A stretch of DNA of 30,342 bases from a virus: IMG/VR virus record IMGVR_UViG_3300046028_004516, positions 1 to 30,342 of that record; one strand, 5' to 3'. Position numbers and translations under genes: made by a program. Below, piece after piece: positions 22,850 to 29,283 of the stretch. Position 1 is the first letter of the stretch. The number at the start of each line of letters is the position of its first letter. Below the pieces are notes generated by a model. The model did not search any database, was not told where the DNA came from, and was given only the letters and a program-made list of their open reading frames with translations.

Positions 22850-23072
22850 CCAGACCCGGCGAATGTCCCTGGTCGAATCTATTGCGAACACCGCAGCTGG
22901 CTTTCTTGTTTCCTTGCTCATCCAGATTTCACTCTTCTCAATCATGGGAATCGAAACCACGACGACGCAGAACCTGACCATGAGTGGGGTGTTTACCTTG
23001 GCCAGCTTGGTGCGTGGCTACCTCATGCGGAGGCTCTTTATATGGTGGCAAAGTGGTACAACATTTTTTTAG
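22842..23072 (+). CDS. DUF7220-like small membrane protein
   Basis: A 76-residue protein; the start at ATG 22842, overlapping the previous stop by 8 nt, is preferred to the in-frame ATG 22767. The pattern RRMSLVESIANTAAGFLVSL then LIQISLFSIMGI and FTLASLVRGYLMRRLFIWW is that of a small phage protein with two hydrophobic helices (about 17-33 and 46-60), which I match to DUF7220. Family function is unknown; a membrane role is likely. It ends just before the attachment region. Confidence 0.72.
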   Translation: MTSQTRRMSLVESIANTAAGFLVSLLIQISLFSIMGIETTTTQNLTMSGVFTLASLVRGYLMRRLFIWWQSGTTFF

Positions 23073-23277
23073 AAATCATGCGTATTCCTGCATAATAATG
23101 CATAAGAAGTTTAACGGATTTTAAAAAATTAGCGATGATAATACGCTATCAGAATAGGGCTTTGCTGCTCTTCCATATTTCCGGTTGGGGTGGAAGAGGT
23201 CGCAGGTTCAAATCCTGTATCCCCGACCTTGTTTTTGATAGAAAAGTGATTTTGGGAAAGTTGTACTGTACAACATT
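23056..23277 (+). repeat. 10-bp direct repeats flanking the attachment core
   Basis: GTACAACATT occurs at 23056-23065 and again at 23268-23277, in the same orientation on either side of the tRNA-like core. They may be integrase arm-type binding sites. Between them, 23073-23180 is AT-rich with two copies of TGCATAA and no ORF. Confidence 0.45.
23183..23228 (+). other. attP-like core: 3' half of tRNA-Pro(GGG)
   Basis: From the anticodon loop on, the sequence fits a tRNA exactly: loop TTGGGGT (23185-23191, anticodon GGG), 3' anticodon stem GGAAG, variable loop AGGTC, T-stem and loop GCAGG-TTCAAAT-CCTGT, acceptor strand ATCCCCG, discriminator A, then CC. The matching 5' anticodon stem CTTCC is absent directly before the loop, so this is not a complete tRNA gene. 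Partial tRNA 3' ends beside a tyrosine integrase are typical attachment cores. The host site would be a tRNA-Pro(GGG) gene. Confidence 0.82.
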
Positions 23278-23296
23278 GTACACCTTCTGCTATGAT
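23260..23296 (+). promoter_or_regulatory. Integrase promoter/operator region with dyad
   Basis: A perfect 7-bp dyad GTTGTAC-T-GTACAAC (23260-23274) precedes a -10-like TATGAT (23291-23296). The -35 position falls within the dyad (TGTACA at 18-bp spacing). A third half-site-like ATTGTAC follows at 23275-23281. A protein bound to the dyad would block the promoter, which suggests autoregulation by the integrase or by a repressor. Confidence 0.5.
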
Positions 23297-23345
23297 TCTC
23301 CGCATGGAGGCCCGCTTTTGGGCTTCTTCCGTGCGAGTTCAAATC

Positions 23346-24560
23346 ATGGCAAAGAAAAAAGTACCCGGTCTGCTACACCATAAGGGAAAAAACTTAGGGT
23401 ATAGCATCAGCCCCGCAACCCGTAAGGCCACTTACCACGGGCAGTGGGGCCTCGTAGCTACCAAGCAGGCCTACCTCCGCTGGTGTGCCGACCTTCTTAC
23501 TGAGGATGTCTCACCCTCGATCGTGCCTGAACACGAACCCGTTGTCGCTGATCTGGTAAACGCCATGATCAAGCACTCCATCTCCTACTACCGAGACCCG
23601 ACGACCGGGAAACCCACATCGCAGGTGGGTGTCATCAAGTCGGCACTGCGGGAGCTCGACCTTTATCTTGAAATGAAAATAAAAGATTTTAAGCCCTCGG
23701 TGCTGGTGGCGGTTCGTGCTGCCATTGTCAACCGAGACATCATTCCCCAGTCGGAAGGCGCACCGAAAAAGAAATTGTGTATCAGTAGTGTGAACAATGC
23801 CATCGTAAAGATTCGCCAGATGTTTAAGCTCGGTGTCGGATGGGAACTTGTCCCAGTCGAGATATACCAAGCGCTCGCCTGTGTCCAGCACCTTAACTGG
23901 CGAACCGCACCAACCTTAAGGAACCCTGACAGGATCGCCCCCGTGCCTGTTGAGTACTTCAGACTGATCATGCCCCATTTGAAACCAATGTACCGTGCAG
24001 TGCTCACCGTCCACCTCGCAACCGGGATGCGTGTCAAGGAGCTCTGCTCCATGCGTTGGTCGGAGATGACGGAGGTCGAACCCGGTCTCTGGTGCTACGC
24101 TCCAGCGGAACACAAGAACTCTCACCGGGGTGATCCGAGATTAATCTACATGAAGACCGATCTCATCGACCTCATGCGCTCCGTACGCAAACCGCTTTGG
24201 GATAAAGATGCTGTCTGGTGCCAGCGTGGCGTTGGCAAGAGTGCTGGCTACAGCGGCATGATCAGTGGTGATGGCTACGCCCGAGCCATTGAGGGTGCAC
24301 AAAAAAGATACAACGAGGGCAGGCTCGCAATCAACCAGGGCGCTCGTACCGATAAAAAGAAACTCGACACCACCTCTGCAAAGCGTGCCCCGATGGAACA
24401 CTGGACACCGTTACAAATCCGACACACCGTGGCAACGCAGGTGCGGCGCACTCACGGGCTCGAGGGAGCGCAAGCGGTACTCGGTCACAGCACCCTTGAC
24501 GCCACACAAATCTATGCGGAAAAGCGTGATGATCTCGCACGGTGCGTAGCCCGAGGGTAA
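23346..24560 (+). CDS. int: Tyrosine recombinase (phage integrase) with atypical catalytic His position
   Basis: Site-specific recombinase for integration and excision at attP. It has 404 residues from ATG 23346; the in-frame ATG 23292 overlaps the promoter -10 and is rejected. Residues 65-185 form the core-binding SAM-like region, and 197-404 the catalytic domain. Catalytic residues: Arg229 (ATGMRVKEL), Lys257 (EHKNSHRG), Arg359 (LQIRHTVAT), His381 (LGHS) and Tyr390 (ATQIYAEKR). The expected first His of the HxxR motif is Leu356. It lies next to the tRNA-Pro-derived core. Likely active, though the substitution may alter activity. Confidence 0.93.
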   Translation: MAKKKVPGLLHHKGKNLGYSISPATRKATYHGQWGLVATKQAYLRWCADLLTEDVSPSIVPEHEPVVADLVNAMIKHSISYYRDPTTGKPTSQVGVIKSALRELDLYLEMKIKDFKPSVLVAVRAAIVNRDIIPQSEGAPKKKLCISSVNNAIVKIRQMFKLGVGWELVPVEIYQALACVQHLNWRTAPTLRNPDRIAPVPVEYFRLIMPHLKPMYRAVLTVHLATGMRVKELCSMRWSEMTEVEPGLWCYAPAEHKNSHRGDPRLIYMKTDLIDLMRSVRKPLWDKDAVWCQRGVGKSAGYSGMISGDGYARAIEGAQKRYNEGRLAINQGARTDKKKLDTTSAKRAPMEHWTPLQIRHTVATQVRRTHGLEGAQAVLGHSTLDATQIYAEKRDDLARCVARG

Positions 24561-24570
24561 ATAGTGCCAA

Positions 24571-24598
24571 AAAATATTTAATATAATTTAAATATTTT
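24571..24598 (+). promoter_or_regulatory. AT-rich dyad centred on TATAAT
   Basis: An 11-bp perfect inverted repeat (AAAATATTTAA / TTAAATATTTT) surrounds a perfect -10 hexamer TATAAT (24582-24587). No clear -35 is seen. It may be an operator covering the promoter of the regulator gene downstream, or simply an AT-rich hairpin after the integrase gene. Confidence 0.4.
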
Positions 24599-24675
24599 AT
24601 TTAGATTTAGTGGAAAATAGTGTTATCTTAATTTTTCTACGAACGACTTCCCCAGTTACTAAGGATATTTCGCCC

Positions 24676-25059
24676 ATGAGCTTGATTTTTGAGATGGCAA
24701 TAGAAAAAGCGGCAAAAGAAGCAATGCACAAATATCTATACAATGATTCGGAGGGCACTTCCGGTGGCGGGTATAATGATTCTGCGGTGCTAAATGCAGT
24801 AGCTAAAAGGAGGGACAGTAAAATGTCTTGGATGGATTTCTCAGACGAAGAACTAAAAATTGTGAACGAAGTCGAACGCAACCCTGGCATGAAGGGCGAC
24901 CAAATAATTAAATTCATGAGCGTCCATAACCCTACAGGCACGGGTGTGACTTGCGAAGCCGCTGTCACTAAGGGCCTATTGTCGAATCTCGTAAAGCGAA
25001 AAGTCCTCATCTCAAACGAAGGGTATACCCTTAACGATTCAAGTACCCCCCCCCTGTAA
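24676..25059 (+). CDS. Probable regulator with a winged-helix-like C-terminal region
   Basis: A 127-residue protein; ATG 24676 is preferred over GTG 24610 because AAGG lies upstream and the extension is AT-rich and unlike coding sequence. The N-terminal half is a helix (IFEMAIEKAAKEAMHKYLYN) and a Gly/Ser linker. The C-terminal half has a winged-helix-like layout: SDEELKIVNEVERNPGMKGD, a central helix, VTKGLLSNLVKRKVLISNEG and a YTL wing strand. It sits between int and the early control region and is closed by a strong terminator, a usual place for a lysogeny regulator. Fold assignment is tentative. Confidence 0.6.
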   Translation: MSLIFEMAIEKAAKEAMHKYLYNDSEGTSGGGYNDSAVLNAVAKRRDSKMSWMDFSDEELKIVNEVERNPGMKGDQIIKFMSVHNPTGTGVTCEAAVTKGLLSNLVKRKVLISNEGYTLNDSSTPPL

Positions 25060-25110: not shown

Positions 25111-25142
25111 AAAGCCCAGCGCTCGAAACGCTGGGCTTTTTT
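25111..25142 (+). terminator. Strong intrinsic terminator after the regulator gene
   Basis: AAAGCCCAGCG (25111-25121) pairs perfectly with CGCTGGGCTTT (25129-25139) across a 7-nt loop, with a T-tract to 25142. It separates the int/regulator transcript from the early control region. Confidence 0.93.
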
Positions 25143-25195
25143 CGTTTCTACACCTCAATAATAATACTAATCATATCGCTATTATCTTCTAGTAA

Positions 25196-25239
25196 TACCG
25201 CAGTCGTACCGCAGTCGTACCAGAGTAGTACCACAGTAT
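25196..25239 (+). repeat. Four tandem 11-bp repeats (iteron- or operator-like)
   Basis: TACCGCAGTCG at 25196-25206 and 25207-25217, TACCAGAGTAG at 25218-25228, and TACCACAGTAT at 25229-25239. The exact 11-bp phase places each copy on one face of the helix. The flanking sequence 25143-25195 is AT-rich. This fits a cooperative operator or a replication origin upstream of the early operon. No gene lies between 25143 and 25377. Confidence 0.7.
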
Positions 25240-25278
25240 GCTTGGTAAATAATTTCAAATAGTGAAGATTACCCGTGT

Positions 25279-25307
25279 CCTGAGTGTTTCCGATATTCGC
25301 ACTCGGG
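25279..25307 (+). other. Leader hairpin upstream of the early-operon terminator
   Basis: CCTGAGTG (25279-25286) pairs with CACTCGGG (25300-25307), eight pairs with one wobble, 13-nt loop. It is directly followed by the terminator at 25318-25355, the arrangement of an attenuator or anti-termination leader. Confidence 0.45.
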
Positions 25308-25317
25308 ATGAGATAAG

Positions 25318-25355
25318 GCGACGCAGTTTATCCTTTTTTACTGCGTCGCTTTTTT
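25318..25355 (+). terminator. Intrinsic terminator in the early leader
   Basis: GCGACGCAGT (25318-25327) pairs perfectly with ACTGCGTCGC (25340-25349), followed by six T. It lies 22 bp before the first early gene on the same strand, so early expression needs read-through or a later start. Confidence 0.9.
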
Positions 25356-25377: not shown

Positions 25378-25674
25378 GTGACACGCATCATAATTCCAAA
25401 ACGACCTGTCTCGGTTCGCGAACTGTCCGAGCTTTTCAATGTGAACCTGCAAACAGTCTACCGCTGGGAGCGCCAAGGCATCGTCATTGATGGCCGCATT
25501 GTGCGTCTTCAAACCTATCGCATCGGCGGGTGCAAACGCATCGAGCCTGAGATGGTGGCGCAGTTCTACGACGAACTTAACCCGCCACCCGTAGAGCGAA
25601 AGCTCACAAAGAAGAAAGAAACAAAACTCGTCGAGGATGCGGTGGAGCAGGCGAGAGCTTGGCTTCAATCCTAA
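25378..25674 (+). CDS. Excisionase-like HTH protein (DUF1580-like)
   Basis: A 98-residue protein starting at GTG 25378, with GAGGG (25361-25365) upstream at a rather long spacing. Residues 10-60 contain a MerR/excisionase-like helix-turn-helix: VSVRELSELFNVNLQTVYRW followed by ERQGI...VRLQTYRIGGCKRIE. The pattern resembles DUF1580 proteins often found in planctomycete genomes. The C-terminal part is charged and helical. As the first early gene after the repeats and leader terminator it may control the lysis-lysogeny choice or excision. The stop overlaps the next ATG (TAATG). Confidence 0.72.
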   Translation: MTRIIIPKRPVSVRELSELFNVNLQTVYRWERQGIVIDGRIVRLQTYRIGGCKRIEPEMVAQFYDELNPPPVERKLTKKKETKLVEDAVEQARAWLQS

Positions 25675-25936: not shown

Positions 25937-26119
25937 ATGCTTAATTTTACCCGCAGAAGCGGCGAGTCTCTCAGGTTTATTTCAGGTGAACACACCGTCA
26001 TCGTGCATCTCACGATGGACGGGCCAAGGATGAAGGTTGCAATCGATGCACCCAAGGCCGTAAAGATTTACCGCGAAGAACTGATGATTAAGGAAGCAAC
26101 TTTAAAGGGAGCGATTTAA
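25937..26119 (+). CDS. csrA: CsrA-family translational regulator
   Basis: A 60-residue RNA-binding protein of the CsrA/RsmA type, known to bind GGA motifs in mRNA leaders and block or promote translation. The sequence follows the family along its length: MLNFTRRSGESLRF matches the MLxLTRRxGES start, then VIVHLTMDGPRMKVAIDAPK and AVKIYREEL, with Arg46 corresponding to the key Arg of the VHREE motif. The start ATG 25937 has a perfect AAGGAGG 6 nt upstream; the ORF's upstream ATG at 25868 lacks one. Two GGA motifs (in GTGGATTT and AAGGAGG) in the leader could allow autoregulation. It lies within the early operon. Confidence 0.87.
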   Translation: MLNFTRRSGESLRFISGEHTVIVHLTMDGPRMKVAIDAPKAVKIYREELMIKEATLKGAI

Positions 26120-26885: not shown

Positions 26886-27250
26886 ACCTTCCCGAAACCA
26901 AACCACGGGTGACGATCATCTCGCAACTCTGCACTAGGCAGGGCAAGACGGACATCGGCAAGCCTTATGTGGTCTACCTCAGTGATGGCCGCTGGTGGCT
27001 ACAGCAAGAGCAATCACTCTGGCCCGATCGTGAGCTTACTTTCCTCGAGATGTGGACGCTACTCAAAGGCGAGAACCATTACAACCTGACGAGACAGGGC
27101 ACCGCCATGCGGATCGATAAGCGCTGGGAAACCCTCCACAGCAAGGCCGAGTTCGACAACATCGATCGCTGGGATGAGACCGGCAACCTCATGAAGGAAG
27201 TCAAAGAAACGCTTGAGCGACTCATGAAAGAACTGGAGCTCATGAAATGA
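26882..27250 (+). CDS. Hypothetical early protein
   Basis: A 122-residue protein with AAGGAG before ATG 26882. No recognised family. The first half is beta-rich (RVTIISQLCTRQGKTDIGKP, YVVYLSDGRWWLQQEQSLW) and the last 40 residues are a charged helix (LMKEVKETLERLMKELELMK). It overlaps the primase-helicase gene as ATGA at 27247. Confidence 0.65.
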   Translation: MNLPETKPRVTIISQLCTRQGKTDIGKPYVVYLSDGRWWLQQEQSLWPDRELTFLEMWTLLKGENHYNLTRQGTAMRIDKRWETLHSKAEFDNIDRWDETGNLMKEVKETLERLMKELELMK

Positions 27251-29283
27251 CCGCTAAAGAATGCGCCCTTAAATATCTGGCAATGGGCTTGAGTGTTATC
27301 GCGATCGCACCCAACGGAAGCAAAGGCCCGGCAACCGTGGTCGGGTCGTGGTTACCCTTCATGACGGGAGCAAGGGCAACCCCGCAGCAGGTCGATGCGT
27401 GGTGGCCAGAAGGAACTCGCAACGGCGTCGCGATCGTGGGCGGGATCTTGTCCAACGATCTTGCGGTCATCGACATCGAAACCGGCGACGCTTACGCACA
27501 GTACCGCCAAGACTGCCAGCAAGAAGGCTTGCTCTACGCTTTGGATAGTTGCCCGATCGTAGTCACCCCGAATGGCGGCAGGCACATCTACTGCTTTGGT
27601 GTTCAGCGTAAGAACCTCAAGCTAGCCAAGTCTACCGAGGGCAAGACGCTCATCGAGATCAAGGGGAGCAACGGCTATGTCCTGGCACCGGGCTCGACGG
27701 AGGAGTGCCACCCGACTGGGCTACTCTATAGGTGGGAAAACAATTCGCTCTTGGATCTACCTGCACCCGCTCTGCCCGTAGACTCGGACGACTTCGATCT
27801 GATGGTAACCGTGGCGGTGTTACAAAATGTAGGAAAGTTTCCAGAGAAGTTTACACTACCGATACAAGCGGGCGAAATCAGAGACAACCGCAAGCGCCCC
27901 GGCGATGACTACAACGAGCGAGCCGACTGGGCAACCATCTTGCATGGTGCTGGCTGGGAGATCTCCCGCATCGGTCAGGACAAAATCTATTGGCGCAGGG
28001 CTGGTAAAGACGATGGCATCTCAGGCACGACTGGACACTGCCGCACTGATGGCTCTGGCGATATGCTTTATGTGTTCTCATCGAACGCTGCACCCTTTCA
28101 AGAGGCGAAGGCCTACAGCAAGTTTGCTGCCTACACCTTGTTATCCCATGACGGTAACTTTACCGCAGCAACTCGGGCTCTTGCGAGTGCAGGGTTCGGC
28201 GAACCTGAAGTTGAACTTAACTTTCTGCATAAGGCGAAGGCTGAAGATGCACCGCTAAAGATCGAGCCCGACCCAGTGACCGGGCTTGAGTATGAGATCA
28301 TCGGAAAGATGAAACGGGATACGACGGAGCGGGTCTGGCACTGGTACGGCTTCGTCACTGGGGGTGGTGTGACTTTGTTCAGTGCCATCTGGAAGATCGG
28401 CAAAACAACACTACTAACGGGCCTATTGAAGTCATGGATTATCGGAGATTCTTTTCTAGGGCAGAAGGTTGATAAGTGTAAGGCCTTAGTTATATCGGAA
28501 GAGCACAGAGACTTTTGGATTGACCGACACGCAGAGACTGGCGTAGGCGATGAAGACCAGCACGGGGTCTGGTGCAAACCATTCACGGCACAGATGACCA
28601 TGAAGCAATGGTTCGAGTATGTCGCACAGCTTGCCTTCATTATGCAGCGTGACGGGTTCAGTGTTTTGATCATCGACACCATCTCAAAGATCTGGCCGGT
28701 GAAAGATGAAAACTCTGCGACCGAAGTGCAACAAGCAATTAACGCTCTCGACTTCATCACTAAGCCGGGGATGTCAGTCATCCTTGTTCACCATCATCGC
28801 AAGGGTGGCGGCGAGAACCACACCGCATCCCGAGGCTCGGGTGCATTGTCTTCAGCAGTGGATATCTGCATGGACTTCACCAGGGAAGAAGGCGGCTACG
28901 GTAACAAAAGCAAAACCAGAAGGCTGATCACGACCACGGGGCGTTGCGGTAGAGCGACCCCATACGAAGTGCTTATCGACTTTGTTGATGAGCAATTAGT
29001 AAGACTCGGTGACAAAGACCAAGTCGATACCACCGCACGAAAGAAGTCCATCATCGAAGTGCTGGACAAGGACACCTACTACACCTTGGAATACATACAG
29101 GAGGCAAGCGGACAAAGACAGGCATTTGTTAGGAAACACTTAGAAGCCCTAGTCAACGACGGCGAAGTCGAGATGATTGGAACAGGCGGTCGAGGTGATA
29201 AAAAACGCTGGCGCAAAGTAACTATTCAACAACCTACTCAAAATAACCTTGGAGATTTCAATGGCAGTGCTCAGAGTTTGTGA
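27247..29283 (+). CDS. Primase-polymerase / RecA-like helicase fusion
   Basis: Central phage replication protein of 678 residues. The N-terminal prim-pol domain (about 1-165, bifunctional DNA primase/polymerase type) has Asp76 and Glu78 in AVIDIETG, and His113 in GGRHIYCF. The C-terminal RecA-like ATPase (about 340-590) has a Walker A variant SAIWKIGKTT (about 379-388), Walker B VLIIDTIS (Asp477) and a SVILVHHHRKGGG motif III-like strand. A winged-helix-like end follows (about 600-660). It lies in the early operon after small regulators. It may initiate replication at the 11-bp repeats upstream. The end overlaps the next gene by 23 nt. Confidence 0.88.
   Translation: MTAKECALKYLAMGLSVIAIAPNGSKGPATVVGSWLPFMTGARATPQQVDAWWPEGTRNGVAIVGGILSNDLAVIDIETGDAYAQYRQDCQQEGLLYALDSCPIVVTPNGGRHIYCFGVQRKNLKLAKSTEGKTLIEIKGSNGYVLAPGSTEECHPTGLLYRWENNSLLDLPAPALPVDSDDFDLMVTVAVLQNVGKFPEKFTLPIQAGEIRDNRKRPGDDYNERADWATILHGAGWEISRIGQDKIYWRRAGKDDGISGTTGHCRTDGSGDMLYVFSSNAAPFQEAKAYSKFAAYTLLSHDGNFTAATRALASAGFGEPEVELNFLHKAKAEDAPLKIEPDPVTGLEYEIIGKMKRDTTERVWHWYGFVTGGGVTLFSAIWKIGKTTLLTGLLKSWIIGDSFLGQKVDKCKALVISEEHRDFWIDRHAETGVGDEDQHGVWCKPFTAQMTMKQWFEYVAQLAFIMQRDGFSVLIIDTISKIWPVKDENSATEVQQAINALDFITKPGMSVILVHHHRKGGGENHTASRGSGALSSAVDICMDFTREEGGYGNKSKTRRLITTTGRCGRATPYEVLIDFVDEQLVRLGDKDQVDTTARKKSIIEVLDKDTYYTLEYIQEASGQRQAFVRKHLEALVNDGEVEMIGTGGRGDKKRWRKVTIQQPTQNNLGDFNGSAQSL

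Follow-up and report, generated by a model that had tools for sequence, protein, structure and literature searches.

What reads a short row of direct repeats ahead of the early operon of a virus, and what do these repeats control? The window analysed here spans an entire virus record (30,342 bases), with nearly all likely genes on the plus strand. Within it, an integrase gene (23292-24560) is followed by ORF1 (24676-25059), a terminator, the repeat array, a leader of two hairpins, a gene for a helix-turn-helix (HTH) protein (25378-25674), a CsrA-family gene (25940-26119) and a Prim-Pol/AAA primase-helicase gene (27247-29283), every feature from ORF1 onwards lying on the plus strand. A first-pass annotation had placed CsrA and primase genes downstream of the repeats, and Pfam confirmed both. 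The integrase gene lies 3' of an attP core (23185-23227) that corresponds to the 3' part of a planctomycete tRNA-Pro(GGG), and a 39-letter pattern of this core with two free positions retrieved eight stretches from a genome collection, all eight from planctomycetes and all within tRNA-Pro genes. The host is therefore probably a planctomycete. We conclude that the array is quite probably an operator that lies near a promoter and is bound by some phage regulator. The reader that we favour, at something close to even chances, is the product of the gene at 25378, which would bind the array cooperatively and regulate its own operon.

The four 11-bp repeats initially described at 25196-25239 are real, two being identical and two diverged (TACCGCAGTCG twice, TACCAGAGTAG and TACCACAGTAT in that register), and Tandem Repeats Finder (TRF) reports period 11 over 25196-25237 (3.8 copies) and 25191-25238 (4.4 copies). 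A more fitting frame is 25191-25245, with four AGTMRTACCNS units at 25191-25234 (AGTAATACCGC, AGTCGTACCGC, AGTCGTACCAG and AGTAGTACCAC) and a degenerate fifth unit, AGTATGCTTGG, at 25235-25245, which overlaps a -35-like TTGGTA and corresponds in position to an inverted unit in some relatives. The unit is asymmetric, and the four direct repeats and the degenerate one stand about one helical turn apart. Self-agreement at a lag of 11 reaches 28 of 33 positions in 44 nt, the strongest at any lag from 6 to 24 in the window. This periodicity is far beyond chance: when the whole window was shuffled 300 times with dinucleotides kept, the maxima were 22 at lag 11 and 23 at any lag (0/300 reaching 28), and none of 2000 local shuffles attained the score of 28. 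No other occurrence of AGTNGTACCNNAGT was found in the window at up to one mismatch.

The HTH protein, ORF1 and the primase served as queries to gather relatives from viral_contigs. Nine records cover the place of the array (the window, L002, L003, L004, L005, L006, L051, L087 and L089), and six stop before it or start after it (L009, L011, L012, L017, L018 and L021). A phased array occupies the matching place in 9/9 covering records, always next to a conserved block, TTGRKAAANAATTTCAAA, and with at least three units in the relatives; the comparison with relatives that the first-pass annotation had proposed thus bears out both place and phasing. The records fall into clade A (the window and L002-L006), with the unit AGTNGTACC, and clade B (L051, L087 and L089), with the unit ARTCRGAYC, and the step is 11 bp in both. 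Clade B arrays combine direct copies (two or three) with a single inverted one at the -35 position; one unit is inverted in L003, and a loss of 2 bp in L004 and L006 reduces one step to 9 bp. Since AGTCGGATCGT and AGTCGTACCGC can be aligned, the two clades appear to have homologous arrays whose letters have changed.

Local shuffles of 44 nt never reached the observed lag-11 score for the window, L005 or L003 (0/1000 each), and did so 5, 13 and 47 times in 1000 for L089, L051 and L006, respectively; judged as repeats by themselves, the arrays of clade B and of L006 are weaker. These shuffles left out L002, L004 and L087, of which L087 has the same array letters as L051, and L004 the same as L006. 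The AT-rich setting ascribed to the repeats is present in the window, but it is not a constant feature of the locus, as the AT-rich stretch left of the array is replaced by a GC-rich palindrome in L003, L004 and L006.

A two-unit pattern matched 20 stretches among viral contigs, three from the family of the window and 17 from others. Several unrelated contigs (L035, L037, L038/L049, L039 and L050) carry 11-bp tandem arrays with a AGTNGTACC-like unit and real further copies, L038 and L049 looking like one sequence; the remaining matches have two units only. In L037, the similar array was judged by eye to lie directly 5' of an apparent integrase gene. We note these contigs and base no conclusion on them.

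To the right, the array runs into a promoter-like block, TTGGTA-N17-AAGATT (25242-25270), whose interior, AATTTCAAA, is conserved among the relatives and whose -35-like hexamer reads TTGAGA in L003, L005, L051, L087 and L089. As a sigma-70 scan found no site above threshold, we infer a promoter here from this conservation. Terminators had been suggested on both sides of the array, and inverted repeats are indeed found at 25111-25139, where the terminator would close the integrase-ORF1 unit, and at 25315-25352, where the hairpin ends in a T6 tract; a simple scanner missed the latter because its loop exceeds the scanner limit. The downstream element is a terminator but also more than that, namely the second hairpin (25315-25355) of a two-hairpin leader RNA, whose first hairpin (25276-25310) has an 11-nt loop. 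From about position 25268, both clades share the same shape: first a hairpin whose 11-nt loop keeps its register, then a terminator hairpin and a T tract.

The window leader folds with a z-score of -5.2, and 0/200 shuffles were as good. Hairpin 1 differs between the clades by paired changes and folds in every sequence. An ungapped stem alignment of seven sequences, six of them distinct, omitted L002 and L004, whose leaders are identical to those of the window and L006. Across ten stem pairs, all 60 of 60 cells hold standard pairs, compared with 30-62% in slid controls; four pairs changed on both sides, three on one side and three never. The count of two-sided pairs alone is not above that of shuffles, 227 of 500 of which reach it, and the clades are separated by one deep split, so that support for the leader comes from the full pairing and not from many independent events. 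In all five one-sided variants (at four pairs of hairpin 1 and one of the terminator), pairing survives as G-U, and does so on the plus strand only; in 9/9 records this strand also folds more stably than the minus strand. The simplest reading of the leader is therefore a transcript that runs rightwards. About 22 nt separate the end of the terminator from the GTG start codon of the HTH gene, with no evident space for a second promoter, so expression of the operon probably needs read-through.

GGA triplets are present in leader hairpin 1 (25306), within a GGAUGA, and at the ribosome-binding site of the HTH gene (25364); both places carry them in the window, L051, L087 and L089. Together with the CsrA gene of the operon, these short motifs hint at a possible CsrA link.

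The HTH gene is the nearest candidate for a reader of the array. Its earlier assignment as HTH holds up in part, as the structure model is winged-HTH-like while the Pfam match, to HTH_17, falls below the cut-off; a weak profile match links the product to phrog_66, annotated as 'excisionase and transcriptional regulator'. The model has a mean pLDDT of 69.9, with block means of 78-84 over residues 11-60. Its closest folds are those of the phage Pukovnik Xis and of BldC (PDB 6amk, 6ama and 4j2n), with the best match to Pukovnik Xis (Z 7.4, 1.8 Å over 55 residues), followed by BldC-DNA complexes (Z 7.2 and 7.0), and RdfS matches at Z 6.2. Sequence identity to Xis and BldC is about 24-26% over 50-55 residues, a Foldseek comparison with the PDB gave no match at E <= 0.001, and all fold-match Z scores are below 8; the likeness may reflect the common winged-HTH arrangement alone. 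We regard the product as a predicted Xis/BldC/RdfS-like winged-HTH protein.

The HTH protein also changes with the array. Proteins accompanying the AGTNGTACC unit are identical to that of the window at 92-95 of 96-97 residues, whereas those accompanying ARTCRGAYC match at 68/98, the clade B protein being 69% identical (two complete sequences). This argument rests on few events because there is one deep split only between the clades. Sequence searches added little to the picture. No relative of the HTH protein was found among annotated phages, none of 64 pattern-matching stretches was confirmed when the HTH alignment was compared with genome_contigs, and the HTH and ORF1 alignments each matched 0/392 planctomycete genomes, a set without a positive control. 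A PDB sequence search with the ORF1 or HTH profile gave no credible match, and the DNA of the region had only short weak matches in phages.

We propose that monomers of the 25378 product would occupy the asymmetric 11-bp units cooperatively and in head-to-tail order, along one face of the helix and up to the -35 position. Bound in this way, the protein would regulate the promoter at 25242-25270, most likely by repression as autoregulation. Transcripts from this promoter would form the short two-hairpin leader RNA, whose terminator lies some 22 nt 5' of the HTH start codon, with read-through allowing transcription of the HTH, CsrA and primase genes. Of the two readings first offered for the repeats, that of a cooperative operator, with the HTH protein as a possible ligand, is the better supported, by their conserved position and phasing beside the promoter-like block, the asymmetric repeat and the Xis/BldC-like product of the neighbouring gene; that of replication iterons finds no support.

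A less likely but serious alternative is that the array is the operator of a phage repressor encoded by ORF1, expressed from the integrase-ORF1 unit and shutting the early promoter in the lysogen. ORF1 belongs to the integrase unit and lies directly 5' of the array, its low-confidence model suggests a winged HTH, and no other repressor gene was recognised by eye among the open reading frames of the window or in about 6 kb past the primase in L015 and L020. Its N-terminal half also follows the clades (45-48/50 versus 19-22/50 identical residues). However, ORF1 has no family match, its model has a pLDDT of 46, and its C-terminal half is equally distant (43/70 identical) between the window and L013, where the unit is unchanged, and between the window and L051, where it is changed. 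Within clade A, L013 and L012 carry an exchanged version of this half, which would be the one to read the DNA, with the unit unchanged in L006/L013, the L012 record ending before the array. On the one side, the clades are tracked by the HTH protein and not by the ORF1 C-terminal half; on the other, the ORF1 N-terminal half tracks them too, and the attP repeats do not change with the HTH protein. We would therefore place about half of our confidence in the HTH protein, a quarter in ORF1 and the rest elsewhere.

Two side observations concern the ends of ORF1. A run of C at its 3' end (25046-25054; 4691-4704 in L006) differs in length among relatives, with the L012 contig ending inside it, and is possibly a slippage tract. 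Just 5' of the gene, at 24572-24609, are AT-rich imperfect repeats with a period of 18 or 9.

It is rather unlikely that the array serves a host regulator or an unrecognised phage protein, a reading for which the similar units in several unrelated viral contigs would speak. Against a host regulator, the two-unit pattern is absent from all 392 planctomycete genomes searched, which is a weak test since at most about one match was expected by chance and a control pattern gave one match. A primase alignment found distant relatives in 32 of 102 genomes of one planctomycete order, and no HTH-array layout was recognised at six primase-relative loci (six of 20, with short flanks).

Replication iterons bound by an initiator, with the hairpins as single-strand initiation sites for the primase, are improbable, even though the Prim-Pol/AAA gene lies within the same operon and repeats, AT-rich stretch and hairpins are close together. 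The one-sided stem changes, 5/5 of which pair as G-U on the plus strand only, point to RNA. The T6 tract of hairpin 2 also speaks against the first-pass proposal of iterons, as does the fact that the array is followed by a plus-strand RNA structure with a terminator. The left AT-rich stretch, which would serve as an unwinding region, is not kept; the conserved block on the right is promoter-like, so that this comparison concerns the left side alone. GC skew, which had been suggested as a check for an origin, makes no turn near 25.2 kb.

The attP region has repeats of its own. Arm-like repeats at 23052-23065 and 23259-23284 have equivalents in L008, L012, L014, L087 and L089, and those flanking attP are of two kinds, GTACAAC-like (type 1) and TGACGGA-like (type 2). 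They are exchanged together with the first ~33 residues among otherwise related integrases, this N-terminus being identical to that of the window at 26/32 residues in L051 and 12/31 in L008, L087 and L089. Integrase types 1 and 2 both occur in both clades, and the array is unchanged by type. That the array consists of integrase arm-type sites displaced from attP is therefore very improbable: the type-1 repeats AGTGGTACAAC and AGTTGTACTG near attP resemble the array unit, and the array of L037 precedes an apparent integrase gene, but in both clades it is the arm repeats, and not the array, that change along with the integrase N-terminus, and the array is 2 kb from the attP core.

Left of the attP core, three TGCRTA repeats in exact 10-bp steps (23078-23105, plus strand) form the best lag-10 stretch of the window. 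These phased sites, separate from the array, are kept in 10/10 loci examined, across both integrase types and both clades, with small variation outside them and at R, and they are likely excisionase sites. They are constant across the clades, unlike the array unit. If the HTH protein is the excisionase, either it reads two motifs or the array has another reader, since TGCRTA differs from the array unit; a single motif through which it would read both attP and the array is unsupported, as the motifs differ.

Phased sites of this kind are known from other mobile elements. The Apl protein of coliphage 186 is an excisionase and regulator that binds cooperatively to several direct repeats one turn apart, at attP as well as in the region of early control (PMC7498355). 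Common to Apl and the window locus are several direct repeats one helical turn apart at an early control region and phased sites at attP. However, phage 186 uses a single motif at the two places and has promoters pointing towards one another, whereas here the two motifs differ, nearly all genes run in one direction and a terminator leader follows the array. BldC of Streptomyces is described as lining up head to tail on direct repeats whose number varies (PMC5859096). RdfS of ICEMlSym-R7A is a small winged-HTH excisionase that binds and lowers its own promoter; the accessible part of the report states that the authors found no consensus motif and mentions no such leader RNA, unlike the window locus (PMC11963761). 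By analogy, the layout would be like that of Apl and RdfS, in that phased sites occur at attP as well as at the promoter of the regulator itself, although membership is unproven, the fold match being middling and the motifs different.

The leader has its own counterparts. P4/P1 CI and C4 immunity RNAs hold off an early operon with a primase by termination in a structured leader, a likeness to the window leader in layout. In the Gifsy-1 prophage, the transcript from a prophage promoter either ends at a terminator as the small RNA IsrK or reads through (PMC4825925). The window leader resembles IsrK in being terminator-ended and placed before the first gene of the operon, a likeness in layout alone. 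The paired changes fall on the transcribed strand and the terminator precedes the first gene of the operon, across one deep split. Rfam gave no family above its gathering threshold for the leader, the scores being 30.4 bits against 110 for LhrC and 27.9 against 37 for isrJ. The locus is best seen as a further case of a known kind of viral switch, with a leader RNA that has no Rfam family above threshold.

A more far-reaching and doubtful proposal is that array and leader form a two-layer immunity switch whose parts diverge together, in which the array would pick the regulator of the lineage and the leader RNA, possibly read by CsrA, would set read-through into the replication genes. Literature searches found no study of gene control in temperate planctomycete phages and nothing related on planctomycete phages with an excisionase and direct repeats. 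If true, such a two-layer switch would be an RNA-plus-array immunity system in planctomycete phages. The locus is a compact and testable switch, in which the letters of the array have changed between lineages with the geometry kept and the leader carries paired changes. Through it one could study how specificity shifts in a cooperative array, and test whether the CsrA protein of a phage acts upon its own leader.
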